From contig CAJWYM010000020.1 of the NCBI GenBank assembly GCA_913049555.1, forward strand, positions 1-44,948: a stretch of 44,948 nt of DNA, written 5' to 3'. Every line of letters starts with the position of its first letter. The stretch's first letter is position 1. This DNA is from an uncultured Opitutia bacterium (lineage in GTDB: Bacteria; Verrucomicrobiota; Verrucomicrobiia; Opitutales; CAJWYM01). This document shows, piece after piece, positions 1 through 34,800 of this stretch. The position numbers and the translations under genes were made by a program. The notes under the pieces were generated by a model. It ran no database searches, was not told where the DNA came from, and worked only from the letters and a program-made list of their open reading frames with translations.

Positions 1-1183
1 GTGATTTCAACTGAAGGATATCTTAATAAAGATTGAAGCTCTTGAGAATACTATCCGAAATGAGTGTGAAGGACTATTGCCATTTATATTATGCCCAAGT
101 GTAAATGGAGAATTACTAAGTTTAATCAAAGAAGAGGAAACTTTTGAGAAAGGTCAATTGGTAAATACTCAATTAGATAAAGTAAAGCTTTCGATATCAG
201 AGAACCTTTCCAATAAATTTTCTTTAGACTCAACTATAGGTTCAGAATTTTCACAGCTAATAAATGAATGTTTTGAAAGTCAGAAATTTACAACAAAACT
301 AGGAGATGATTTTACTCCTAAATTATCATTGTCTCGAAATGATCAAAATATTATTCAATCTCAACTAAGTAATGCCTCTACAAATACATTAACTAGAATA
401 AAGAATGCTTCTGATCATCTAGAAGCCTTATATCGAGGTTTACAGAAAGCTCGTAAGAATCTTAATAGAGCACCGGACGAGGATGTTGTAAAACCATTAT
501 TTAATGAGATTATGGAGCTGAATCAAGATCTGGGTAAATATGAAAAAGAAATGGAAGGATATGAGGATAATCTAAAGTCATTAATTTTTCAAATAAGTGA
601 AGTAGAAAGAGAGCTTATGAAATTGGAGCTTGTTGATCAGAAGAATCTGGAATTAGCAACGAAAATGGCTTATGTGCAGCGAACTAGAAAAGCACTGAAA
701 GAATATCACAAAAACATCACTCATGATAAAATCATGGAACTTCGCCAGAATGTAGCCGAATGTTTTAATTTGTTAGCTAGAAAAGATGATTTTGTAAAAA
801 GTGTCGATATTGATGAAGATACGTTCCAAGTAACCATTTATAATTCAGACGAACAAACTATATCGAAAGAAGAACTTTCATCAGGAGAAAAGCAGATTTT
901 ATCAATCTCTATGTTGTGGGGACTTGCAAAGTCATCAGGAAGACCACTTCCTGTGATTATTGATACTCCACTGGGTAGATTGGACAGTGATCATCGTATG
1001 AAGTTGATTGATAAGTATTTCCCTAATGCTTCTCATCAAGTGATAATGCTTTCTACAGATACAGAAGTTGATAATTCTTTATATAAAAGACTAAATCCAA
1101 GTATTTCTCATTGTTATCACTTGAGTTATGACAAACGAACTCGCAAAACGAATGCAGAGGAACAGTATTTTTGGAAGGAGTAG
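1..1183 (+). CDS. dndD: DndD, DNA phosphorothioation ATPase (3' part only)
   Basis: This is the C-terminal part of an SMC/Rad50-like ATPase of the DNA phosphorothioation system; the family is usually about 650-700 aa, so the N-terminal half with its Walker A lies left of the window. A long charged helical stretch (roughly the first 230 residues of the visible part) fits the coiled-coil arm. It is followed by an ABC signature (SSGEKQ, near base 880), a Walker B with catalytic acidic region (VIIDTPLGRLD, near 955) and a terminal LSTDTEV motif. DndD works with DndC and DndE when sulfur replaces a non-bridging backbone oxygen; its ATPase may remodel DNA. The stop lies 3 nt before the dndE start. 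Oddity: the coding frame (5 onwards) meets TGA at 2-4, while frame 1 is open only to a TGA at 34-36, so the true frame shifts near the edge or is broken. Family call sure; gene integrity not. Confidence 0.85.
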
Positions 1184-1186
1184 CTC

Positions 1187-1570
1187 ATGCATAAAATAAC
1201 ATTAAAGAAAATTCCATTTTCACAAGACGCTGATAATCGGTTAAGAGCCCTAAAAGGCAGAATTGGAATTACTCCCAATCTGATTTGTAGAATTGGTTTT
1301 TGTTTATCTATTGAGGAATCAGGCTTACCGCGAGAGATGGAGAAAATTGAGAACATTGAGAGAGAAATAAATAGATATACATTACTTGGGGAATACGACC
1401 TCACTATTTCAAGCCTATTACAAGCATGGCTCGTTAAGCATAAAATAGATGTAGAGAATGATAACGAGATGAACCATTGGTTCCTTGCACATATGGTTAG
1501 AGGAATTGACCTGTTTAACTCACGAGTTAAAAATATTAGTGATATAGGTAAGCTTGTAGCTAAATATTAA
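1187..1570 (+). CDS. dndE: DndE, DNA phosphorothioation protein
   Basis: A 127-aa protein with the DndE family pattern: an N-terminal basic helix (RLRALKGRIGITPNLICR), then FCLSIEESG and the conserved block EINRYTLLGEYD near residues 64-75, and a C-terminal AHMVRGIDLFNSRVK segment. Length agrees with the family (about 110-130 aa). DndE is a small helical protein described as binding nicked DNA; it is essential for phosphorothioation together with DndC and DndD. The start ATG is preceded by a good Shine-Dalgarno (GGAAGGAG), placed over the last codons of dndD, so translation is coupled. Its stop overlaps the dndA start (TAATG). The family call rests on recognised motifs, the role on published family knowledge. 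Confidence 0.92.
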   Translation: MHKITLKKIPFSQDADNRLRALKGRIGITPNLICRIGFCLSIEESGLPREMEKIENIEREINRYTLLGEYDLTISSLLQAWLVKHKIDVENDNEMNHWFLAHMVRGIDLFNSRVKNISDIGKLVAKY

Positions 1571-2718
1571 TGAATAAGCCTCTTTATTTAGACTCACATT
1601 CCACAACACCAGTAGATCCTCAAGTCTTAGAGGCAATGCTTCCTTATTTCACTGAGGAGTATGGAAATGCTGCGTCGAAAAGTCATATTTATGGGGTAAA
1701 TGCTTTCCAAGCAGTTGAGACTGGTCGAGAAATCATCGCTAAGTCCATAAATGCAAAATCACAAGAAATAATTTTTACATCTGGTGCTACTGAAGCAATT
1801 AATTTAGCTATAAAAGGGTTAGCGTTTAAAAATAAGGAGAAAAAACATTTTATAACAATTAAAACAGAGCATAAGGCTGTTCTGGACTGTTATGAGTGGA
1901 TTCAGTCTCTCGGTCATGAAATTACATTAATTGATGTTAATGCATTTGGAGAAATTGATTTAGAAAAGCTAAGTTTAAATATCCAAGAGAATACTATTCT
2001 TGTTTCAGTAATGCATGCGAATAATGAAACGGGCATTATACATCCAATTAAAAAAATCGGAGAAATTTGTCGAGAAAATGGAGTATTCTTTTTTACAGAT
2101 GCTACTCAAACTATGGGTAAAGAACACCTTGATGTGGAAAGTATGAAGATTGATATGCTCGCTTGTTCTGCACACAAGTTAAATGGTCCAAAAGGAATTG
2201 GTGTTCTTTATGTTAGAAGAAGTAGACCTAGAATTAAATTAGACGCTATAATCCACGGCGGAGGCCATGAAAAAGGTTTACGGTCAGGAACACTAAATGT
2301 TCCTGGTATCGTTGGGTTTGCGGAAGCTATACGGATATTAAGCAAAGACAGAGAGAAAAAGCAGGTGCAACTTCGGGAAATTAGAGATACTTTTTGGAAT
2401 GAAATAAAGACTAATATTCCAACCGCTCAATTAAATGGAAAATTAGAAAATCGCTTAGCAGCTAATTTAAATATTTCTTTCCAAGGAGTCGAAAGCGAAG
2501 CTTTGATCATAGCTCTCAAGAATGATGTAGCTGTTTCCAGTGGGTCTGCTTGTACTAGTGACGCTGTTTACCCTTCGCATGTTTTAAAAGCTATGGGCTT
2601 TGATGAGGATAGGATTTATTCTTCGATTAGGTTTGGAATAGATAATGTGAACCATAATGAAGAGACTGGAAAAAAAATAATAACCATTAGCGAGCAATTT
2701 AATAGACTCAATTTTTGA
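1570..2718 (+). CDS. dndA: DndA, cysteine desulfurase for DNA phosphorothioation
   Basis: This 382-aa PLP-dependent class V aminotransferase is of the IscS/NifS type. The PLP lysine is K203 in SAHKLNG; H101 (TEHKAV) and D177/Q180 (TDATQ) match cofactor contacts; the catalytic persulfide cysteine is C328 in SSGSACTS. The C-terminus is complete. It takes sulfur from cysteine, yielding alanine, and would pass the persulfide to DndC, the PAPS-reductase-like sulfurtransferase expected upstream. By sequence alone it could be an ordinary IscS; the dnd assignment comes from its position, joined to dndE by a 1-nt TAATG overlap. dndA is often divergent from dndBCDE or missing with IscS taking over, so a dndE-dndA order inside the operon is noteworthy. 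Family sure, dnd role very likely. Confidence 0.9.
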   Translation: MNKPLYLDSHSTTPVDPQVLEAMLPYFTEEYGNAASKSHIYGVNAFQAVETGREIIAKSINAKSQEIIFTSGATEAINLAIKGLAFKNKEKKHFITIKTEHKAVLDCYEWIQSLGHEITLIDVNAFGEIDLEKLSLNIQENTILVSVMHANNETGIIHPIKKIGEICRENGVFFFTDATQTMGKEHLDVESMKIDMLACSAHKLNGPKGIGVLYVRRSRPRIKLDAIIHGGGHEKGLRSGTLNVPGIVGFAEAIRILSKDREKKQVQLREIRDTFWNEIKTNIPTAQLNGKLENRLAANLNISFQGVESEALIIALKNDVAVSSGSACTSDAVYPSHVLKAMGFDEDRIYSSIRFGIDNVNHNEETGKKIITISEQFNRLNF

Positions 2719-2736
2719 ATAGAAACAAAGGACTAT

Positions 2737-3273
2737 ATGGGAAATATTGAACTAACACATAATTTAGAACCCAATGCATTCAAATGGTTATGGGCAAAAT
2801 ATGTATGTGAAACAAACTTAACTAAGCATTGTCAAGCATGCTTGAAGGGAACTCAAATTAAAGACGACAAAGGACGAGGAACTCCCTATAGCCAATTGTT
2901 TTCTAAGGCATCAAACCCCGAAATGCTTAATATGAAAACCCTGATTCTTAGTGAAATCGATAATGGAGATTTTAAGGCGATTTACTTATGCGGAGTAGTT
3001 TCAAAAGGATATTCAGTGAAAAAGAACTACCCGCATAATTTACATGCTGCTATAGTCCCTAAAATTGGAACTTCTGATGTCTACAGCTTTGAAAAATGGA
3101 AATTAGAAGTGAAAAATGGTTTTTTTACCAAAATACCAGAAGAGTCTGAATTACCGATGAAATACAAAAGTCTTCCGGATGCTTACACAACTTGCAGAAT
3201 ATTTAGGTGGGCATGTTGCATTTTCCCATTATTAAATGAGAAATCAAAAACCAGTGAATATGCTTTAAACTAG
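2737..3273 (+). CDS. Unrecognised 178-aa protein, last gene of the dnd arm
   Basis: I do not recognise this family. It starts 18 nt after dndA with a plausible ribosome site (AAAGGA) and reads in the same direction, so it is probably the last gene of the dnd operon. There is no signal peptide or membrane segment. It has a cysteine/histidine cluster at about residues 29-40 (C-x7-C-x2-C, preceded by H) that could bind metal or carry sulfur, a hydrophobic beta-like stretch (FKAIYLCGVVSKG) near 90, and further cysteines near 156-165 (TCRIFRWACCIF). Codon use and AT content match its dnd neighbours, suggesting it travels with the island. It could be an accessory sulfur-handling or regulatory factor or an unrelated cargo gene; the sequence does not decide. 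The CDS itself looks real because the length, ribosome site and placement are orderly. Confidence 0.7.
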   Translation: MGNIELTHNLEPNAFKWLWAKYVCETNLTKHCQACLKGTQIKDDKGRGTPYSQLFSKASNPEMLNMKTLILSEIDNGDFKAIYLCGVVSKGYSVKKNYPHNLHAAIVPKIGTSDVYSFEKWKLEVKNGFFTKIPEESELPMKYKSLPDAYTTCRIFRWACCIFPLLNEKSKTSEYALN

Positions 3274-3356
3274 TATTCTAAAATAATAATAGATTACGGT
3301 CATCAGGTTTAATTTTTGTGTAATCAATTATTTCAAATTCAGCCTTATTAATTATT
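3274..3356. other. Convergent junction between dnd and dpt arms
   Basis: This 83-nt AT-rich spacer separates the stops of the 178-aa gene (+) and dptH (-). A weak inverted repeat (GATTAC ... GTAATC, loop over 20 nt) is present, but there is no clear stem followed by a T-run in either direction. Transcripts from the two arms may therefore overlap. Confidence 0.4.
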
Positions 3357-6300
3357 CTACATGTCCTTCTCAATTAATGCCCAAAAAGCTCTGTCTTTCA
3401 TCAAAATCGGTTCACTGCCCGCCAAATTCACAATACTATGATGTTTCTCTAATCCTTTTATTACATTCATCAATTCATCTTTTTCACTGGCAGAGTTTAA
3501 ACTAAAGAGAGATTCTATATCTTTCTTTCTAAGCTCACTAACTCTATGAATGATCCATGTTAGTATATAATTTGAATACTCGTTATCACTCGTTGAGAAA
3601 TGATTTAAAAATTGTGTAGATAGGATTGTCCCAACACCAAATTCTCTACCTTCTTTGAGGATTTTACGGAGCGTTCCAAAATTTTTACTTAGAAAGTTAT
3701 CTGCTTCATCAACCAAAATTAGTTTGGTGAGTTGGCGGAAATTTCCATCGATTTCACTATGACCGTGCGCTTGCATCTGGGAGTAAAAAAGGTCTAATGT
3801 AATGGCGACTACAAGATTTTGAATGTCTTCCTCATAACCATTAAGGTTAATAATGGTTACTCCATTTAAAAGATCGAAAAACGGTTTAGTTTTATCTGGT
3901 TCAGGTTCGAATATTTCGAACTCGTTAAGCTTATAGATTGCAGAGTACAAACTATCTTTATCCTTATCAGAGACTTCATCTAGAAGAATTGAGTATACAT
4001 CAGCTAAAGTAGGAGCCTGTTTATCCCATGTATTCTTGTTGCCTTTGTTGATTCCTCTGTATTCGTATGCTTGCATGATTGCTTCGTGCAAGCGATTTTC
4101 TTGCTTGTTACCTAAGTGAAAAGCATTAACAATTGTTTCCTTTATTGTATTCCCTGTGTGTAAGGGAAGCATAGGTTTAAATGCCTTAGGTATCGACAGA
4201 GCCAAGGGATTAAATGGCAGATGATAGAGGTCGTAAACCTTAGCATCATTCATTTTCATGAAATCCTCCTTAATATAATCTCCCTTATAGTCGAAAATCA
4301 AAATACCTAAATCTATAGATTTAACATTTCTCTCTTTTTGCTGATAAAGTTGGGTAATCAATGATTTGGTAAACTGTGTTTTACCAGTTCCCATTGTGCC
4401 TATGATTCCTGTATTGGTATGCATTACCTTATCGGTAGATGTTGGATACCATAACACAGGGTCGTTATTCTGGATCTTATGACCAAATAAGATTTCCATC
4501 GGTTCTATTGGCTCTACAGATTCTGGAGCCGTTATGTATTCAGATGGGTCCTCTTCATTAGGTAGTGTCCCATCATTCGCAGCAAGATTGGGCTCTGGGT
4601 TTATTGGTCTATAAGTATAATCTTCTTCACCGTATGAGTCCTGTTCTGAATTAAAAAGACGCATACTTCCTATGCGTTCGGATATATCAGAAAATGGAGA
4701 ATGCGCCCAATTCAAACCATCATTATCATACAAGCGAATCAGCAAGTGGTCCTCTTTCTTATCGATACTCCTTTGGATAAATGATTCGTTTTTATCAAAG
4801 GCTAGGATAGAAAATTTCCCAATTTTGTTTTCCAAGTAGTCTGAAATTTGAAATTCATCATTATTTAATCTTTTGCGGAAATCTTGAATGACTCTTTGAA
4901 AGTTCTTCTTGTTCTCAGGCCAAATTTCATAGATAAGGAATTTCTCAGCAAAAGTGATTGCTTGTTTTGCAAAAAAGTTACGATAAATCTTACTTTTGAA
5001 ACCATCTCCATTAAGATGCTTCTTTAATAATTCGACGGTTTTAGTCCCTTGAAGTCTCGCTTTTTCTATAACATTAGAATGGACACCACCTATTTTTACC
5101 TCTACCGGGTGCAAATACATCTTAAGCTCTTCACCCTCTGTCCAGGAAAACCCAACCATTAAAAGATCATCGCTGATATTTTCTAATTTATTCTCACAAA
5201 GATTCTTTTTGGAAAAGAATCCCTCATTTTGCGGTAAACCCGCACTGCCAGAAACTCTTAGGATTTCTTCCATTGATAATGGAACCCACGCAATATTGTC
5301 ATCTTCAAATAAGGTAAGCATTGCCTTCATTGCTGATAGGACACTTATCTTTTCTCTGGCTTTCTCATCTTTCTGGATATTATGTCTTAGTAACCAATCA
5401 CCATTGACCGCATTATAGAGGTTAAGAATGCAAGAGGCTTGTTCTGAATCGATTTCCTGGGCTCCAGTTCTATCTCTGAGGAATTCCTTAATTATGAATT
5501 CATACTCATTTGATTTCTTAGTAACAGTAATGGCATCATAGCCACTTGCATTATTATACTGGTCACTATAGTGAATGATTATTACTTCATCATTACTCTT
5601 GAAAAACGAAAGGTCTACTTTGGGCGAAATAAAGGTAACCCATCTTGATTTTTTGTATACGGAATCCAATGATTGATTAATACTTCGGTCAATTACAGTG
5701 GAAACAACATTTTTCCGATCATAAGGGTCTTGCGTAAGTGCAACATTATAAAATGGATTAATGGTCTTTGCTAAATCTAGCAACAAGTTGCTTTCCGTAG
5801 GGTAATCCTTAGTGCCAAAACAACTTCGGTAGGATTCTTTAATATATGTAGATGGGGTATCAGCAACTAAACCATTTAAACCAACTCCAGAGTTCACTTC
5901 ATCCATATCGTAATAAGAATAAGAAACTTCACTCGATGGAATTTCAGAGGAGTTTGTAAATTGGTAAAAAGAAATATGAGAATACTCAAACTCTTCAGAG
6001 TTTGTTCTTATATATGAGAAATGAACTTTCTCATGGTATATAAGAAGCATATCTTGTGGTTCAATTTTATTAGAATTAAAGTCTAAGTTAAAATGCTGTT
6101 TAATGAAATTAGTATCTTCATAAAGAGAGATTTCTTCGAATTTTGTCACATAATCTGAGGATCCATATATCCTAATCTCAATAGGTCTAATTTTGTTTTC
6201 AGATAGTTTTTCTGTAATTTCCTTTTTTAGGTATTTAAAGACCCCTTCCAGCACTTCTCCGCAATCTCCGCAATTAAATAAATTAATCTTGAGTGGATTA

Positions 6301-8528
6301 TTTGGTGTAGGAAATAAAAATGAAAAATGCTTTAAGAATTCATCTATTTTTTGAGAAACCAAGCTACTAACGAAGCGTTTTGAAGTATGCTGACTATTAA
6401 CTGAATTACTTTCGAAGTATAACCACTCTGGTGAGTGCTCTTGCTCTATTGGAGTATAAACTGACTTATCTCTGCACTTTATGAAAGGGACTAAGTTTAA
6501 GGGTGAGAGCTTTTTTAAGATACTCTCATGTAAAGCTTCGTTTTCTAACTCTTCATTAACTTTTATGTTATAGGCTATATTTAAGGGATGAAGAGGGGTG
6601 AATAATAATCTTTTGTAACTAGTAGATTCTTCTAAGGTGCCCAGTCTAAATAGAGCAATATCTTCTTGGTTTAATGGTGTTCCTTCTTCAATAGATTCAA
6701 ACTCTTTTATGTAAAGTTTAACGAACTTCGTATTAAGCTCTGTTAGTTCTTCGTCCCACTTAGTTAAGCTGGGTAAAGCATTTCGGTTCTTGTAGAAATT
6801 AAGTATATCAGAATAAGCCTTCTTTAAAGTTGGATTAATGTCTAATCGAACTTCTGCTATGGTATTGTCTCTTTGGGTTTGTCCGCAATATATACCATTT
6901 TCTATAATTTGCTTTTCTAGAAATAGATTATTTCTAAACACTTCCCTAACAAAATATCGGCTATTTTTATGTTCTAAAACCAGAGTATCTAAGTTTTTTA
7001 CTCCATCTCTTTTTATCTTATGAATGTATGAGGACTTTTTCTCTCTTTTGTTCTTCCAGACCTCTAGGCCTGATATTGATACAGGCTTTTGCGTTTCTAC
7101 ATTGATTCGGCAGCGAGTTTCAGAACTATTGATTCTTAAAGCGAATTCCAGATGGTTGTTATCATTTTCTTCATCTAGTAGAGTGTTCTTAATTACTGAT
7201 TTTTCAGATGTTGTAATTTCAAGCATTTGACCATCTTCAGCTTTAAGCTCTATCTCCTTTTCAGCATTGGGATTAAAAATGAGATATTCATCATTTGTAT
7301 TAAATACTAAAGTTTTCCTATTAAGATAAAATGTAGAACGAAAGTCTGAAAGTATATTCTCAGAGAATGGGACCACTAAGATTTTAAATTTAAACTTAGT
7401 TCCTGTTTCTTTATGGGAATAGACGATATTGAAAAAATAAGAACATTTTGTGTCATTGATCTGGAATTTACAATGAACTTCCTTGTGTCCTTTGGAATCT
7501 ATATTATCTGCACTAATACCAGTAAAGTTTTTTACTGAAATTCTTTCAGTGAATTTTAGTGGCAGAACAAAACCATCCTCTTCGTCAGGATTAAAGACAA
7601 TTATATTTCTGTTACGCTTTCCTCTATCTGAATCGCTATCTGCTTTATCCCAGAATGTAATATTTGAAAGAGGGAGCTCTTGCTGTCCTTCTAGGTATTC
7701 TGGAACAATATTTTTCTCTTTTTCTTCAATCCACTTGAGTATTTGTCCATAATCAACATTTTTCCAATCTTCGTCTAATAATTCTTTGACGCCCTTTTCT
7801 GTGAATTTTTTCTCCAAATAAGTATCTAAGCCACCATATAAATGTCGTTTTGCTATTTCTTCAAAAAGGGAATGGTTTTCTGCAACCCTCTTTGGTGCTC
7901 TATCGATATTAACACCTAAATCCTTATCCCCAAATAATCCAAGATGCTCCAGATCTATCGGTTCAATTTCCTCCTTGGGCAGGATTTCTAATATCGGAGC
8001 ATAATCAAATAAATTTCGGTAGGAGTCATTTAACCCTTCTTCTCTAGACTTCAGAACCGTTTGAAGAACTATTTTTTCATGAGATTCAAATTTCGAACTA
8101 TCTATTTCATTATCAAGATTACTCTTAATGTCGTTTAAATGAAGGGGCATACCTTCTTTGAATAAACTCCCAGAACCACCATTTAAACTATCTAGAGAGG
8201 AATTATGAATGGAAAGTAGTGAAGTTTTTGCAAAGATAGGATCATCAGTGCCAACCTTATTGCGAAGATATGTCAAATAATCATCTTTTATCCCATCGAC
8301 ATTTGCCGCAACGATGAGAGTGACTTCATCCATAACGAAGGCATATGTTTGGTATTTCTCTAATTTAAAGGTAACTACCTTGGTTGCATATTCAGAACGT
8401 AGTGACTCATACAAAAACCGAACATCCTCTTCTTTGTCTAAACGAATAGAAAACCTCTGCCCGTATGACACACCAACTTGATCAAAATACTTGTAAACTC
8501 TTTGACTAATATACTTGTAAATATTCAT
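3357..8528 (-). CDS. dptH: DptH, HerA-like ATPase/helicase of Dnd restriction
   Basis: A 1723-aa protein ending in a HerA/FtsK-like P-loop ATPase domain. Walker A is GTMGTGKT at about residues 1377-1384; Walker B is ILVDEAD with the aspartate near 1607; a sensor-like ILSTQF follows, and a terminal RAFWALIEKDM resembles the ends of HerA-type translocases. The first ~1300 residues show no motif I can name. Size and architecture match DptH, the largest subunit of DptFGH, which restricts DNA lacking phosphorothioates and damages the host if modification is lost. It starts 13 nt after the dptG stop, so the three dpt genes form one leftward operon starting beside tRNA-Phe. It is full length with no internal stop, so the restriction side looks intact. 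The catalytic site for DNA cleavage is not apparent to me. Confidence 0.9.
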   Translation of the reverse strand: MNIYKYISQRVYKYFDQVGVSYGQRFSIRLDKEEDVRFLYESLRSEYATKVVTFKLEKYQTYAFVMDEVTLIVAANVDGIKDDYLTYLRNKVGTDDPIFAKTSLLSIHNSSLDSLNGGSGSLFKEGMPLHLNDIKSNLDNEIDSSKFESHEKIVLQTVLKSREEGLNDSYRNLFDYAPILEILPKEEIEPIDLEHLGLFGDKDLGVNIDRAPKRVAENHSLFEEIAKRHLYGGLDTYLEKKFTEKGVKELLDEDWKNVDYGQILKWIEEKEKNIVPEYLEGQQELPLSNITFWDKADSDSDRGKRNRNIIVFNPDEEDGFVLPLKFTERISVKNFTGISADNIDSKGHKEVHCKFQINDTKCSYFFNIVYSHKETGTKFKFKILVVPFSENILSDFRSTFYLNRKTLVFNTNDEYLIFNPNAEKEIELKAEDGQMLEITTSEKSVIKNTLLDEENDNNHLEFALRINSSETRCRINVETQKPVSISGLEVWKNKREKKSSYIHKIKRDGVKNLDTLVLEHKNSRYFVREVFRNNLFLEKQIIENGIYCGQTQRDNTIAEVRLDINPTLKKAYSDILNFYKNRNALPSLTKWDEELTELNTKFVKLYIKEFESIEEGTPLNQEDIALFRLGTLEESTSYKRLLFTPLHPLNIAYNIKVNEELENEALHESILKKLSPLNLVPFIKCRDKSVYTPIEQEHSPEWLYFESNSVNSQHTSKRFVSSLVSQKIDEFLKHFSFLFPTPNNPLKINLFNCGDCGEVLEGVFKYLKKEITEKLSENKIRPIEIRIYGSSDYVTKFEEISLYEDTNFIKQHFNLDFNSNKIEPQDMLLIYHEKVHFSYIRTNSEEFEYSHISFYQFTNSSEIPSSEVSYSYYDMDEVNSGVGLNGLVADTPSTYIKESYRSCFGTKDYPTESNLLLDLAKTINPFYNVALTQDPYDRKNVVSTVIDRSINQSLDSVYKKSRWVTFISPKVDLSFFKSNDEVIIIHYSDQYNNASGYDAITVTKKSNEYEFIIKEFLRDRTGAQEIDSEQASCILNLYNAVNGDWLLRHNIQKDEKAREKISVLSAMKAMLTLFEDDNIAWVPLSMEEILRVSGSAGLPQNEGFFSKKNLCENKLENISDDLLMVGFSWTEGEELKMYLHPVEVKIGGVHSNVIEKARLQGTKTVELLKKHLNGDGFKSKIYRNFFAKQAITFAEKFLIYEIWPENKKNFQRVIQDFRKRLNNDEFQISDYLENKIGKFSILAFDKNESFIQRSIDKKEDHLLIRLYDNDGLNWAHSPFSDISERIGSMRLFNSEQDSYGEEDYTYRPINPEPNLAANDGTLPNEEDPSEYITAPESVEPIEPMEILFGHKIQNNDPVLWYPTSTDKVMHTNTGIIGTMGTGKTQFTKSLITQLYQQKERNVKSIDLGILIFDYKGDYIKEDFMKMNDAKVYDLYHLPFNPLALSIPKAFKPMLPLHTGNTIKETIVNAFHLGNKQENRLHEAIMQAYEYRGINKGNKNTWDKQAPTLADVYSILLDEVSDKDKDSLYSAIYKLNEFEIFEPEPDKTKPFFDLLNGVTIINLNGYEEDIQNLVVAITLDLFYSQMQAHGHSEIDGNFRQLTKLILVDEADNFLSKNFGTLRKILKEGREFGVGTILSTQFLNHFSTSDNEYSNYILTWIIHRVSELRKKDIESLFSLNSASEKDELMNVIKGLEKHHSIVNLAGSEPILMKDRAFWALIEKDM

Positions 8529-8541
8529 TCAATGTCTTTAC

Positions 8542-9984
8542 CTAAAGAATTTGTTTAACATATTGAGCATCTCCGCTGTCACTTTTGGTCTCTAATAAAT
8601 TAATTTTTGCAAGAAATTCTGTCATCTCATCACGAGTGCTATGGTCTAGAAAAATACCTCTCTTCTCTATTTCTTCCCATAGATCATTTAATTTAATCTT
8701 ATGGTCAGGTTTATTTCCAATGCATATTAATACGAGAAATAATAGGTAATCTTGGGTAATAGAAATTGTTTGTCCAAGTCTTCCTCGATTTCTATTAAAG
8801 TTCTCTTTGCAGAATGCTTTGAACCAATTTCCATAGGCAGAATATGCTCGATTTCTTCCCTTCTTATCTTTTTGGAATTGAAGATCGATTAAATGCCAAA
8901 CCTTCCAAATCGAATTTTTAAGTTCATCATTTGGATATTTGTTCTTTTTAACTTCTTCTTCAAAGTTTGCCCAAGTGAAATTCAGTTTATCAAGTTCAGA
9001 TTTATAAAATACCGTAAGTTTATATACTTCGTCTTGATAGGATTTCTGGTCTTCTTCGCTGAAATTGCTTAGAAAAGCATATAATTCAGTATAATCAAAG
9101 ACGTTTGGTAATATATTGTCACGATCTTCAATAAAATGTAACAGATCAAGAGCATTTGCATGAGAAAACAAGTTTTCGATCTTAGTCTCTAACATTTTCC
9201 AACCGTTTAAGTAGGGATCTCTTGATTGTGATAAGCTTTCAGTATCAAAACTTGCATAAATTCTATGCTGAATCTTCGTATCAAAAAACTGGTTTAGTTG
9301 TAATGAATAGTTCGAGATATATGAAAAGAAATAATATTTGAGAAGTTTATCAAAATTTTCAGTAAAAACCCGATCATCAGACATGAGGAATTTTAGATCA
9401 TTTTGGAAAACCTGAATAAGACTTGAGAGCGAACTGTGATAACCAACAGTATCTTTTTTCTTATTTTTTTCTAATTCAGGAAGGCAGGATGTAACTAAAT
9501 CATATAAGGCATTTTGAGTGTTATTGCCACGTATAATGGATTCAATTTCAACATCCTTATTTATAAATAAGGATGTATACAAATCTGCAATTCCATTTAG
9601 GACGGATGCATCACCATTATTTTTTAAGTAGGGATATACTTGTTTGCTGAATATCACAAGATTGCCATTCTCTTGGAAAATAACTTGTCTTAGAATATCC
9701 TCTAATGACTCTTCTGAGTCTGTTTGGGTTTTCTCTATTGCTTTCTCTATAAGATCCTTAGCGGGCTTGAAATTATTTGGAAGTTTTGTCCCACTCATAA
9801 TGCGAGTGATAGAACCAATGACTCCATGAAATGATTTTAGATCTTCTTTTGCATCATTGAGCTTTTTATCATTTGCAGTAAACGGGAATAATTTGATCTT
9901 AGACCCTGACTTATGAGCAAATTGATTTCCATTCTTATAAGTCTTTCTGACCGCTTCCTCATTAAATTGAAATCTATCACTCAT
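8542..9984 (-). CDS. dptG: DptG, Dnd restriction subunit
   Basis: A 480-aa soluble protein between dptF and dptH. It has no signal peptide, membrane segment or nucleotide-binding loop that I can see; it is rich in Lys, Asn and Phe and appears largely helical. Its size, the fixed order dptF-dptG-dptH, and very short spacers (6 nt from the dptF stop, 13 nt to the dptH start) identify it as DptG, the middle subunit of the phosphorothioate-dependent restriction complex. The identification leans on context more than motifs. Family members are thought to bridge the two ATPases DptF and DptH; no enzymatic role can be read from the sequence. Confidence 0.83.
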   Translation of the reverse strand: MSDRFQFNEEAVRKTYKNGNQFAHKSGSKIKLFPFTANDKKLNDAKEDLKSFHGVIGSITRIMSGTKLPNNFKPAKDLIEKAIEKTQTDSEESLEDILRQVIFQENGNLVIFSKQVYPYLKNNGDASVLNGIADLYTSLFINKDVEIESIIRGNNTQNALYDLVTSCLPELEKNKKKDTVGYHSSLSSLIQVFQNDLKFLMSDDRVFTENFDKLLKYYFFSYISNYSLQLNQFFDTKIQHRIYASFDTESLSQSRDPYLNGWKMLETKIENLFSHANALDLLHFIEDRDNILPNVFDYTELYAFLSNFSEEDQKSYQDEVYKLTVFYKSELDKLNFTWANFEEEVKKNKYPNDELKNSIWKVWHLIDLQFQKDKKGRNRAYSAYGNWFKAFCKENFNRNRGRLGQTISITQDYLLFLVLICIGNKPDHKIKLNDLWEEIEKRGIFLDHSTRDEMTEFLAKINLLETKSDSGDAQYVKQIL

Positions 9985-9990
9985 ATTCGA

Positions 9991-11778
9991 TTAATCTCTC
10001 TTATTAAAAGTGTAGCTATCAAACTCATCATCATATTCTAGAAGATAACTGTCCTTAACTTGGGCATTAAATTCATAAACTTCGAGTTGGTTTGCTTTAT
10101 AGGCTCCAGAAGTTAGATTTTGAACAAATCTATCAAAGTCTACGTGTCTATTCTTGTCTTGTCTATTTGGGCTGTAGCCTTCTTCGATGCGCTGGATTAA
10201 ATAAAATAGATTAAAGTCAATGGATAAGACCACTCCATCTGGATTATCTGTAGTTTTAAATCTTAAATTTATTGAGTTTGGAAATTTATGTATTTCTTTT
10301 TGGTACTTCTGCTTTAAGTTTGAAATGTCAGCTTTAAGATCAATCTCCTTACTGAAGCGGTACTTGTTTTGCGGTTTCCCTGCTGTTATAAATACTTTCT
10401 CTTCGTCACGATGAAAACCATGCCATGCCATTGCCGCTCTTTTTACTTGGCCATATAGAGGTTTTAATTTTGCTTTATCACCATTTAGGTAAAAAAAGAG
10501 GTTTTTGAGGAATATGTTGTATAAGTGATCAAACCTGTGAAGGACTTTACCTGGTTCATTTGCTTTTTTCAAACGAACAAATAGTTTAACTAGCTGTAAG
10601 TTGGTTTCCTTGGTGTTCAACTTAGCTAAATTTGATAACCATACCTTCAATTGAGAGTCGTTTTTCAATAAATCGCTCGCTTCCAATTCTTCAATGGGTT
10701 TGTTTGAATTTAATATCTTAATGATCTCAACTTCAATTGATTCATTGAATTTATGAGAAGGATCAAATTCATTTATAGCTTCATGTATAAAAGATATATC
10801 AGGGTGTTCGAATATCTCATTCAATAGGAAAGAATCATAACGCATTTGTAGGGTGAAATTTTTTAATGCATCTACAATATCACTTTCATTGACTGAATCT
10901 AATGAAATAGGTACGACTAATTCATATATGAAATTTAACAAAGACCGGAACGAAACTATAATTTTTCTCTCTACTATAGCTCGAACTAGCAGTGAACAGA
11001 TATAGTCTTGAACTGAAGTGTCGCAGAAATAATCATAGTTTACCCTCATGGGACAACTAGCATCCTTAAGTGGTGCAGATTTATTAATATAAGTTTCTAG
11101 GTATGACTTATAAAAAGGGTTCTGTTTTGTCTGACTCGTTACTTTTTGAAAGATTTCACGTATTAGCCCACCATTAATGACACCATCTGCCAATTGAAAG
11201 AATTTGTAATCAGCTAAATTTATAACTTGGAAAGATGAGCCTTCCTCAAAATTCTGACTTTGGTATTGTTCAGGATTATAATCTCCCCTTAAAATTCTAT
11301 GACTTTTTATAAAGGCTCCTAATTTGGTGAATCTTGAAAATCTTTCATCATCAATTAAGTTAGAAAGCATTCCCAGATTGATAGCTAGAATCATCTTATC
11401 AACTCCCCGTCCTGAATTCAAACGATCATCGGAAAAGCCTTCGAGTGAACTGAATAAATAATCAAGGCTTGTTTGCTCTGGATCTCTGCTTTCCGTTGCA
11501 TCATTATGTATCTTGTAGTTACGGACTTTATCATCATGATATTTTATTAACCATGAGATTAAATGTGATTTTCCATCTCCAACATTTCCGCAAATTAAAA
11601 TTAATTGAGAAGAAGGTGTTGCTGAAGATGCTTCAATGATTTTTCTCAAATCAATTTCAACATGTCGACTTACATGTAAATAATTCTTAAATACATCAAG
11701 TTCCTTCTCTCCATCAGAAATGGCTTCCCGGGATGAGATTCTAAGCTTAGTGAGTGCTTCTTTAAATGGATGTGACAT
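9991..11778 (-). CDS. dptF: DptF, P-loop ATPase of Dnd restriction
   Basis: A 595-aa protein with an N-terminal P-loop (GNVGDGKS, residues 64-71) after a hydrophobic strand (SQLILIC), typical of DptF, an AAA/STAND-like ATPase. A likely Walker B region (KMILAINLGML) lies near residue 130. The rest is helical without membrane segments. It is the first gene of the leftward dptFGH operon; its promoter must lie in the ~150 nt between it and tRNA-Phe, where an inverted repeat is found. DptF acts with DptG and DptH to recognise and restrict DNA not protected by phosphorothioation. The ATG start at 11778 has only a poor ribosome site. Confidence 0.88.
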   Translation of the reverse strand: MSHPFKEALTKLRISSREAISDGEKELDVFKNYLHVSRHVEIDLRKIIEASSATPSSQLILICGNVGDGKSHLISWLIKYHDDKVRNYKIHNDATESRDPEQTSLDYLFSSLEGFSDDRLNSGRGVDKMILAINLGMLSNLIDDERFSRFTKLGAFIKSHRILRGDYNPEQYQSQNFEEGSSFQVINLADYKFFQLADGVINGGLIREIFQKVTSQTKQNPFYKSYLETYINKSAPLKDASCPMRVNYDYFCDTSVQDYICSLLVRAIVERKIIVSFRSLLNFIYELVVPISLDSVNESDIVDALKNFTLQMRYDSFLLNEIFEHPDISFIHEAINEFDPSHKFNESIEVEIIKILNSNKPIEELEASDLLKNDSQLKVWLSNLAKLNTKETNLQLVKLFVRLKKANEPGKVLHRFDHLYNIFLKNLFFYLNGDKAKLKPLYGQVKRAAMAWHGFHRDEEKVFITAGKPQNKYRFSKEIDLKADISNLKQKYQKEIHKFPNSINLRFKTTDNPDGVVLSIDFNLFYLIQRIEEGYSPNRQDKNRHVDFDRFVQNLTSGAYKANQLEVYEFNAQVKDSYLLEYDDEFDSYTFNKRD

Positions 11779-31941: not shown

Positions 31942-32541
31942 ATGAGTGCAGACAACCTATATACGGTTTTTGATCGTATGATGTCCCGAGAGGAGAAAGA
32001 GACTGTTTTAAAACAAAAATCGCATGTATTTTGGTTTTATGGTCTTTCTGGTTCCGGCAAAAGCACTTTAGCAATTAAATTGGAGCGCTTCATAAGTTCG
32101 AATGAGAAACATTGTGTTCTCTTAGATGGAGACAATATTCGTTCTGGTTTGAACAACAATCTTGGTTTTTCAGAGGAGGATCGCGCTGAAAATATCAGAA
32201 GAATTTCAGAAGTTACTAAGTTGTTTTTAAACAACGGGACTATTGCCTTAGCCTCTTTTATTACACCCTTCAATCATTTGAGAGAAACTGCCAAAAAGAT
32301 TGTTGGCGATCAAGACCTTTCATTGATCTATGTGAAAGCAAGTTTTGAAGAATGTGCTCAAAGAGATGTCAAAGGGTTGTATGGAAAAGCTAAGGCGGGA
32401 AAAGTGAAAAATTTTACCGGACAGCAATCTGCATTTGAGGAACCTTCCAGCTCGGATCTTGTTTTGGACACTGAAAAAGAAACTGAAGAGGAATCCTTTA
32501 ACAAGTTACTTCAGTATATGAAAGCTAAGATTGCTTTTTAA
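31942..32541 (+). CDS. cysC: Adenylylsulfate kinase
   Basis: A 199-aa stand-alone APS kinase that makes PAPS from APS and ATP. Walker A is GLSGSGKS (34-41); DGDNIRSGL near 60-68 and the IRRISEVTKLF helix are the APS-binding family marks; FITPF near 111-115 and the KGLYGKAKAGKVKNFTG lid follow. A ~25-residue N-terminal extension precedes the kinase core. It begins the sulfate-activation operon; cysD follows 17 nt later. No reductase gene (cysH/cysI) is present in this window. Confidence 0.94.
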   Translation: MSADNLYTVFDRMMSREEKETVLKQKSHVFWFYGLSGSGKSTLAIKLERFISSNEKHCVLLDGDNIRSGLNNNLGFSEEDRAENIRRISEVTKLFLNNGTIALASFITPFNHLRETAKKIVGDQDLSLIYVKASFEECAQRDVKGLYGKAKAGKVKNFTGQQSAFEEPSSSDLVLDTEKETEEESFNKLLQYMKAKIAF

Positions 32542-32558
32542 TTTATTATTTTGGAAAT

Positions 32559-33464
32559 ATGAAACAATACACAATCACCCATATCCGCCAACTTGAAGCT
32601 GAGTCTATTTTCATTATGAGAGAGACCGCGGCACAATTTGAGAAACCTGTTCTTATGTTTTCTGGGGGCAAAGATTCCATCGTGATGGTTCACCTTGCAA
32701 TGAAAGCTTTCCATCCAGCGAAGATCCCTTTCCCTTTGTTGCATGTTGACACAGGTCATAACTTTGAGGAGACGATCGAATATCGGGATCAATTAGTCCA
32801 GAAAACGGGGGCAGAATTGATTGTTGGTTCTGTTCAAAAATCGATTGACGAAGGACGCGCTATTGAAGAAACGGGTCTCAATGCATCTCGGAATGCGCTG
32901 CAAACGATTACGCTTTTAGACAGCCTAGAGACTCATAAGTTTGACGCAGCCCTTGGGGGAGCAAGAAGAGATGAAGAAAAAGCTCGCGCAAAAGAGCGTT
33001 TTTTCTCGCATCGCAATGAGTTTGGTGAGTGGGATCCCAAAAATCAACGTCCAGAGCTTTGGAATATTTTTAACGGCAGCAAAAATCATGGGGAACATTT
33101 CCGAGTTTTTCCAATTAGTAATTGGACTGAGATGGATATTTGGCAGTACATACGAATGGAAAATATTGAGATGCCGAGTCTTTATTTCACCCATCGTCGC
33201 AAAGTGATTGAGAGAAATGGAACTCTTCTAGCATTGACTGACTTTATACAACCTCAAGCTGGAGAAAAAGTACAAGAGCTAGATGTCCGGTTTAGAACCA
33301 TAGGGGATGCCACTTGCACAGGGGCTGTTTTATCAAAAGCATCTGATATGGATGATATCATTGGAGAAGTTGCTGCTGCTCGCCAAACAGAGCGTGGAAC
33401 TCGAGCCGATGACAAACGCTCAGAATCAGCGATGGAAGATCGCAAAAAAGCAGGATATTTTTAA
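32559..33464 (+). CDS. cysD: Sulfate adenylyltransferase subunit 2
   Basis: A 301-aa N-type ATP pyrophosphatase with the PP-loop SGGKDS (35-40), plus GGARRDEEKARAKERFFS near 138-155 and WTEMDIWQYI near 189-198. It forms APS and pyrophosphate from ATP and sulfate, driven by the CysN GTPase. Length and motifs match the family. cysN begins 52 nt after its stop. Confidence 0.97.
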   Translation: MKQYTITHIRQLEAESIFIMRETAAQFEKPVLMFSGGKDSIVMVHLAMKAFHPAKIPFPLLHVDTGHNFEETIEYRDQLVQKTGAELIVGSVQKSIDEGRAIEETGLNASRNALQTITLLDSLETHKFDAALGGARRDEEKARAKERFFSHRNEFGEWDPKNQRPELWNIFNGSKNHGEHFRVFPISNWTEMDIWQYIRMENIEMPSLYFTHRRKVIERNGTLLALTDFIQPQAGEKVQELDVRFRTIGDATCTGAVLSKASDMDDIIGEVAAARQTERGTRADDKRSESAMEDRKKAGYF

Positions 33465-33516
33465 TCGGTAAGAACTAAAGCCAAACCAAACTGAGAAACA
33501 CAAAAATAAAGAAAAA

Positions 33517-34800
33517 ATGAGTTCTGAAACCGAAAAAGGATATTTGAATATGGACTTGCTTCGTTTTACAACAGCGGGAAGTGTAGACGATGGCAAAAGT
33601 ACATTGATTGGTAGATTGCTGTATGACAGCAAAGGAATCTTCGAAGACCAATTAGAAGCGATTGAAAAATCGAGCAAACAGAGGGGAGATGAGAATGTAA
33701 ATCTGGCTCTTTTAACAGACGGTTTGAAGTCTGAGAGAGAACAGGGAATCACGATCGATGTTGCCTATCGTTATTTTGCAACTCCAAAAAGAAAGTTTAT
33801 CATAGCGGATACCCCTGGACATATTCAGTATACGCGCAATATGGTCACGGGAGCCTCCACTGCCAATCTTGCAATTATTTTAGTGGATGCTAGAAATGGG
33901 GTTGTCGAGCAAACCTGCCGCCATTCCTTTATAGCAAATCTTCTTCGTATACAGCACGTAGTGGTTGCTGTCAACAAGATGGATCTTGTTGATTTTAAAG
34001 AAGAAGCTTATGAGAAAATCAAGAAAGATTTTTCAGATTTTGCCTCTCGTTTGGACAATATTATTGATGTTACATTTATACCTATCAGTGCCTTAAAAGG
34101 GGACAATGTTGTTAAAAAATCGGAACAAATGGACTGGTATGCTGGCCCCTCTTTGCTTTACCATCTAGAGACTGTTTATATAGGATCCGATGCCAATCAT
34201 GTGGATGCTCGTTTTCCTGTGCAGTGGGTGATTCGACCTCATTCCGATGAATATCATGATTTTCGAGGATATGCAGGACGGGTTGCCGGGGGTGTATTCA
34301 AACCTGGAGATGAGGTTACGGTTCAGCCATCTGGTTTTTCTTCAAAAATCAAAGCCATCCATTCCATGGATGATCCGGATGTCAAAGAAGCCTACTATCC
34401 AATGTCGGTATCTATCACTTTGGAAGATGAAATTGATATTGGTCGTGGGGATATGATTGTGAAGCAGAACAACCCACCAAAGGTTGAGCAGGATCTTGAA
34501 GCGATGATTTGTTGGTTTTCTCGTGAGAAGTCCCTCCAAGAACGAGGCAAGTATTACATCCGACAGACATCAAGAAGTACAAAAGCAATGGTCAAGCAAA
34601 TTTGTTACAAGGTAAATATCAATACACTCCATAAAGTAGAAGATGATTTGGATGTTAAGTTGAATGATATTGCTCGTATTAAATTAAGAACGGCCAGCCC
34701 GGTCATCTATGACAGTTACCGCAGAAACCGTAATACAGGGAGTTTTGTCCTTGTAGATGAACAGACCAATCAGACCGTCGCTGCGGGAATGATTTTGTAA
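33517..34800 (+). CDS. cysN: Sulfate adenylyltransferase subunit 1 (GTPase)
   Basis: A 427-aa EF-Tu-like GTPase. G1 is GSVDDGKS (21-28), G3 DTPGH, G4 NKMD, and beta-barrel domains follow to the end. GTP hydrolysis here drives sulfate activation by CysD. There is no fused CysC domain, in agreement with the separate cysC gene upstream. panD starts 9 nt after its stop. Confidence 0.96.

Follow-up and report, generated by a model that had tools for sequence, protein, structure and literature searches.

The end of a contig from an uncultured Opitutia bacterium carries a dnd-dpt locus with a 178-aa gene of no known family between dndA and dptH, which raises the question of what such a gene does among genes of DNA phosphorothioation (PT). 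The window, that is, the whole analyzed stretch of 44,948 nucleotides, is a contig end starting inside dndD. Searches of its assembly found neither dndB nor dndC, and the upstream part of the operon is thus missing from view.

The 178-aa gene in its locus

The three dpt genes, located on the minus strand, run toward the 178-aa gene. The features of this part of the window are as follows.

1..1183, plus strand: dndD, C-terminal part only, as the contig begins within the gene (TIGR03185, 3.4e-84, to the profile end; PADLOC DndD)
1187..1570, plus strand: dndE (PF08870, 1.4e-20; TIGR03184 above cut-off)
1570..2718, plus strand: dndA, an IscS/DndA-type cysteine desulfurase (PADLOC DndA, 8e-155; TIGR03235, 7e-131)
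2727..2732, plus strand: AAAGGA, probable ribosome site of the 178-aa gene (from the sequence; ATG 4 nt downstream)
2737..3273, plus strand: small gene of an undescribed family, window's branch (ORF, homologs, 37-row alignment, AlphaFold2 model)
2827..2841, plus strand: codons of H31-C32-x-x-C35 (H31 and C32 invariant, C35 Cys or Ser in the alignment)
2854..2886, plus strand: insert of 11 residues (40-50), unique to the window protein in the alignment
3357..8528, minus strand: dptH, restriction module (TIGR03237, 7.7e-206)
8542..9984, minus strand: dptG (TIGR03236)
9991..11778, minus strand: dptF (TIGR03238)

The GC content is 0.31-0.36 (about 0.33) up to approximately 12 kb and 0.37-0.49 (about 0.45) beyond it, and because of this step the dnd-dpt part of the window is probably an acquired island with its edge near 12 kb. 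Sulfate-activation genes resembling cysC, cysD and cysN are found at 31942-34800, distant from the dnd genes.

An earlier note, made from the sequence alone, had described the 178-aa gene as co-directional with dndA, preceded by a ribosome site and sealed inside the locus. All this is borne out: the ORF starts with ATG after a spacer of 18 nt from the TGA stop of dndA, and its own stop is 84 nt from the stop of the convergent dptH. A simple scan of positions 2400 to 3600 found no terminator-like sites. The gene probably shares an mRNA with dndD, dndE and dndA, from which it would be translated. Judged by sequence comparison, it is coding beyond doubt, since homologs 38-55% identical to it occur in phages as well as in other phyla, and since the differences between two Clostridiaceae copies concentrate at the third codon positions (13, 13 and 44 differences at positions 1, 2 and 3, respectively). 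The earlier statement that the gene lacks a known Dnd/Dpt counterpart also holds. As a single query, the window protein had no match in Pfam, NCBIfam or PDB and no meaningful one in PADLOC or PHROG, the sole PADLOC match being JAB (0.027, spanning 21 residues).

The family and its two branches

A single scan of 84,980 species genomes identified three relatives with 43-53% identity, one from Clostridium N3C and two from MAGs (Bacteroidales and rumen Prevotella); scans of viral contigs added further relatives at 38-43% identity and, with more distant seeds, 21 loci. The genome and viral scans combined gave an alignment of 37 members; seed-based scans of this kind miss distant members, the profile searches covered about 2,000 genomes, and the surveyed loci are few, many of them being MAG-derived. 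An Enterococcus plasmid match was dropped as having no ORF with the family motifs, the G771 match (L041) was a chance one within a secreted-peptidase-like protein, and the G684 candidate (L042) was rejected as a degraded remnant. In G684, a Bacteroidales genome, a degraded family remnant with a stop codon occupies L050:7731-7967.

Eleven residues (W19, H31, C32, G38, Y83, C85, V87, N101, H103, C153 and R154) are invariant in all 37 rows, and two further positions each allow two residues, K21 being Lys or Arg and C35 being Cys or Ser (Ser in 5 of the 37). Of the cluster of one His and three Cys that had been noted earlier at residues 29-40, the His stands, but only two Cys (C32 and C35) lie there; the third is C24, which is not conserved across the family. 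A strict CxxC zinc pair formed by C32 and C35 was rejected because of the Ser residues at position 35.

AlphaFold2 produced confident models for both the window protein (pLDDT 90.4, pTM 0.86) and a phage member (pLDDT 96.8), featuring a beta-rich core with C-terminal helices. For neither model did Foldseek find a PDB match at E 0.001, which does not imply a novel fold; VIA returned only weak C2-like beta-sandwich rows below the trust level (Z 3.7, rmsd 4.9, 112 aligned; Z 4.4, rmsd 2.9, 78 aligned), and BFVD two uncharacterized phage proteins that are presumably family members. At the sequence level, 23 members and their profile had no family match in Pfam and PDB, and a single member matched one PHROG with no assigned function at 0.00095. 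The profile search and structure prediction that the earlier note had proposed have thus yielded confident models, but neither a known family nor a confident PDB fold. No HNH profile matched any of the 23 members, and the PDB fold search was empty too, a divergent HNH domain being still possible; no nuclease motif or fold emerged in any profile or structure search of the family. Similarly, no NCBIfam match to a SAM-methyltransferase domain was found among the members tested, and no sulfur-binding domain in the window protein itself.

In the tree, the window's branch (13 rows, support 100/100) stands apart from the 24 other rows, nearly all of which come from phages or prophages. This is an undescribed family of small, globular, ordered proteins with two branches, one phage-borne and the other, that of the window, rare in cells. 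Sequence comparison indicates that the window protein is homologous to the product of the small phage gene downstream of a ParB-methyltransferase gene: the identity with the phage-branch member L010 is 27% (E 9.5e-6, in a small database), the profile match is at 1.2e-7, and the invariant residues are in common.

Genomic neighbors of the two branches

In 20 of the 21 viral loci, which include near-copies and represent fewer than 20 independent cases, the start of the gene falls in the interval from 37 nt upstream to 98 nt downstream of the point where a ParB_N-methyltransferase match on the same strand ends, and the gene often overlaps the ParB_N-methyltransferase gene by 3-9 nt; in L024, the exception, two copies lie in tandem at 2-3 kb from that gene. 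By inspection, the genes that follow are often terminase or terminase-like. Copies in prophages and genomes (L010, L043, L044, L047, L069 and L070) are paired with ParB-methyltransferase likewise, and L048 is not. That ParB domains occur fused to phage DNA methyltransferases has been noted before, the role of such fusions being called unknown (PMC12783734). Of all the clues to what the family does, this coupling is the strongest, and it points to joint action with an enzyme of the SAM type that binds DNA. No ParB-methyltransferase gene was found in the window or beside members of the window's branch, save one located 13 kb away in a prophage.

The recurrent phage cassette (L012-L032, L043, L044, L047, L069 and L070; for example, L012:3962-6420) consists of a ParB-like gene, the ParB_N-methyltransferase fusion and the small gene, often followed by terminase genes. 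The L047 prophage, which carries this cassette, also encodes its own methionine adenosyltransferase-like protein (L047:11479-12648; TIGR01034, 5e-54, below cut-off), which hints that much SAM is consumed. Two phages (L006 and L008; G425 and G427) and the L069 prophage hold both branches separately, the second copy lying away from the ParB-methyltransferase cassette.

The window's branch comprises five viral contigs (L006, L007, L008, L063 and L065), one prophage (L069) and seven other cellular loci. The proposed neighborhood survey has shown that PT genes adjoin six of these seven loci: dnd genes in four (the window, L002, L067 and L068), ssp genes in L003, and a free-standing relative of the sulfur-binding domain in L004. 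All three species-genome matches outside the window's genome (L002, L003 and L004) are among these six. In L002, the homolog and dndB of the adjoining dndBCDEA operon diverge, and in the Clostridiaceae loci L067 and L068, with dndBCDE(A), it lies about 1.5 kb and about 3.6 kb from dndB, respectively. In L003, it comes after genes for SspC, SspD, PbeA and a PbeC-like ATPase, and ahead of these is a gene resembling DUF4007 that we take by eye to be SspB-like; just upstream of the homolog start, at L003:9689-9999, identical direct repeats of approximately 60 nt flank a stretch of masked N (9749-9939). In L004, a stand-alone gene of 170 aa without a nuclease domain (L004:9462-9974) ends 12 nt before the homolog and matches the PT-reading sulfur-binding domain SBDHga1 (PDB 8h0l_A) at 2.4e-15. 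In L066, no dnd gene was found within 19 kb of the homolog, and DndE is absent from its genome.

HTH-WYL regulators are encoded on the strand of the homolog in L066 (8082-9026, adjacent), L067 (8141-9094) and L068 (10524-11471); defense genes are often under the control of WYL proteins. L067 and L068 also hold other defense genes, namely an HNH gene, a helicase gene and one with a weak SIR2-like match, and clustering in defense islands may explain a part of the link to PT.

Among Clostridiaceae, the gene was found in 4 of 207 genomes, and three of the four carriers have dnd nearby, compared with DndE in 8 of 162 genomes (Fisher p about 5e-4, which is approximate, as the samples overlap and kinship is ignored). 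Six of the eight dnd-positive Clostridiaceae do not have the gene, which is therefore dispensable. Together with the dnd, ssp and sulfur-binding-domain neighbors listed above, these counts support the view that close relatives of the window gene have PT genes as neighbors much more frequently than expected. Taken together, the members of the family, the larger branch of which is phage-borne and coupled to ParB-methyltransferase, lie mostly away from dnd loci, which the earlier note would have counted against its proposal; this does not apply to the window's branch in cellular genomes. Hence the proposed role as a PT accessory stands as regards the neighbors of this branch, but not as regards specificity for dnd.

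The gene seems to have moved separately from its neighbors. Between the window and the Clostridium locus, in which it is found at opposite ends of the operon, identity is 52% for the 178-aa gene but 40% for DndA and 27% for DndD, and DndE cannot be aligned by BLASTP; the dnd-linked copies and that of L066 form one clade (support 97/97). As the gene is better conserved than DndA and DndD, it did not simply ride along with dnd, and these values fit poorly with co-inheritance from an ancestral dnd locus. The simplest reading of the sequences is that a dnd-adapted version was passed among dnd loci; alternatively, stronger constraint on the 178-aa gene than on its neighbors could produce the same pattern.

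Possible functions of the family

The coupling to ParB-methyltransferase in phages, together with the PT-gene neighbors in bacteria, suggests a borrowed accessory of DNA modification and not a sulfur enzyme. We give about an even chance to the reading that the product of the 178-aa gene is a small globular protein assisting in DNA modification, originating from a mainly phage family of which one branch has been kept in PT loci. In phages, the gene is coupled to the ParB_N-methyltransferase fusion just upstream of the terminase genes; according to this proposal, one branch would have entered bacterial PT loci (dnd, ssp and sulfur-binding-domain) and been retained there. H31, C32, C85, N101, H103, C153 and R154 may form one metal or thiol center on a beta-sandwich, and the protein, together with a DNA-bound partner, would act on, or mark, DNA in a modification step. 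The partner would be the ParB-methyltransferase in phages. In bacteria, it could be DndB, described as formerly placed in the ParB superfamily (PMC10853773), or some other protein bound to PT; the candidate in L004 is the sulfur-binding-domain protein. The small number of cellular non-prophage loci of the window's branch, only seven, the L066 locus without dnd, the absence of the gene from six of the eight dnd-positive Clostridiaceae and the other defense genes of L067 and L068 count against an accessory of modification. The undescribed and strongly conserved family links phage ParB-methyltransferase cassettes to bacterial PT defense, and if this link is functional, dnd loci exist as a variant with a further component.

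A regulated defense effector, such as a nuclease or a toxin-like back-up directed to or released by PT-DNA and acting outside the modification step, seems rather unlikely. It would fit the apparent operon of the L004 homolog with the stand-alone sulfur-binding-domain protein, and the same-strand WYL regulators of L066, L067 and L068. Elsewhere, the sulfur-binding domain guides HNH nucleases to PT-DNA (PMC7461809), and the edges of Dnd loci are reported to hold nucleases (PMC10853773). However, the searches for a nuclease motif or fold were all empty, the gene is coupled in phages to a modification-type gene and not to nucleases, and a nuclease directed to PT-DNA would cut the own DNA of a dnd host.

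It is also doubtful that the gene is a passenger, that is, a phage-derived or mobile gene lodging in defense islands with no functional link to PT. The presence of the window's branch in phages and a prophage, the L066 copy without dnd, the absence of the gene from most dnd loci and the low GC content of the window locus (0.33 against 0.45 just past 12 kb) all agree with this explanation, but PT genes of three kinds accompany six of the seven cellular loci, the dnd-linked copies of distant hosts are sisters and better conserved than the surrounding dnd genes, and the window gene closely follows dndA in the same direction.

To the same degree we doubt a reading in which members of the family are small enzymes that modify DNA, or obligate subunits of such enzymes, and make an undescribed DNA mark with a ParB-type DNA-binding partner; many phages would mark their own genomes in this way before packaging, and bacteria would have adopted the mark as a second layer on PT.

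Handling of sulfur or of an iron-sulfur cluster for PT, suggested in the earlier note and consistent with the invariant Cys/His set and the adjoining cysteine desulfurase gene, is very improbable, since phage members without adjoining dnd or ssp genes keep identical invariant residues, C35 is replaced in some members, and no copy other than that of the window is next to dndA, those of Clostridiaceae being on the dndB side.

Relation to described systems

The gene is embedded in a Dnd/Dpt locus (DndABCDE, DptFGH/DndFGH) and shares the direction of dndDEA, but it matches none of the DndA-DndE and DptF-DptH profiles. The homolog in L003 follows a locus resembling the CxC ABC-ATPase/PbeABCD system, whose small protein PbeB has been characterized as largely disordered and rapidly evolving (PMC10853773), whereas the present family is ordered and strongly constrained. 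The pairing in L004 resembles PT-dependent SBD-HNH restriction enzymes of the ScoMcrA and SprMcrA type, from which the family differs in having no detected HNH or other nuclease motif. The larger branch shares the phage ParB_N-methyltransferase neighborhood, which the window does not have. In the literature searched, we found no published system naming this small protein. The most complete survey of Dnd neighborhoods consulted records nucleases and methylases as well as DndB and one small protein that is disordered, with nothing like this family in the sections covered (PMC10853773). On sequence grounds, the window locus is a dnd system with an undescribed component, the gene being neither a Dnd/Dpt core gene nor PbeB nor a methyltransferase.

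The PT-associated putative methyltransferase TIGR04096 comes close to the family in one place: a member on a Synechococcus plasmid lies beside an annotated gene with an N-terminal-half match to TIGR04096 (144 bits, cut-off 150). The family itself, however, has no methyltransferase domain, and TIGR04096 was rejected as the identity of the phage ParB-methyltransferase, as the phage fusions gave no meaningful match (a single one, 17.7 bits). The Synechococcus member (NC_019691.1, L011, positions 834-1277, minus strand) is unannotated and partly antisense to that annotated gene.
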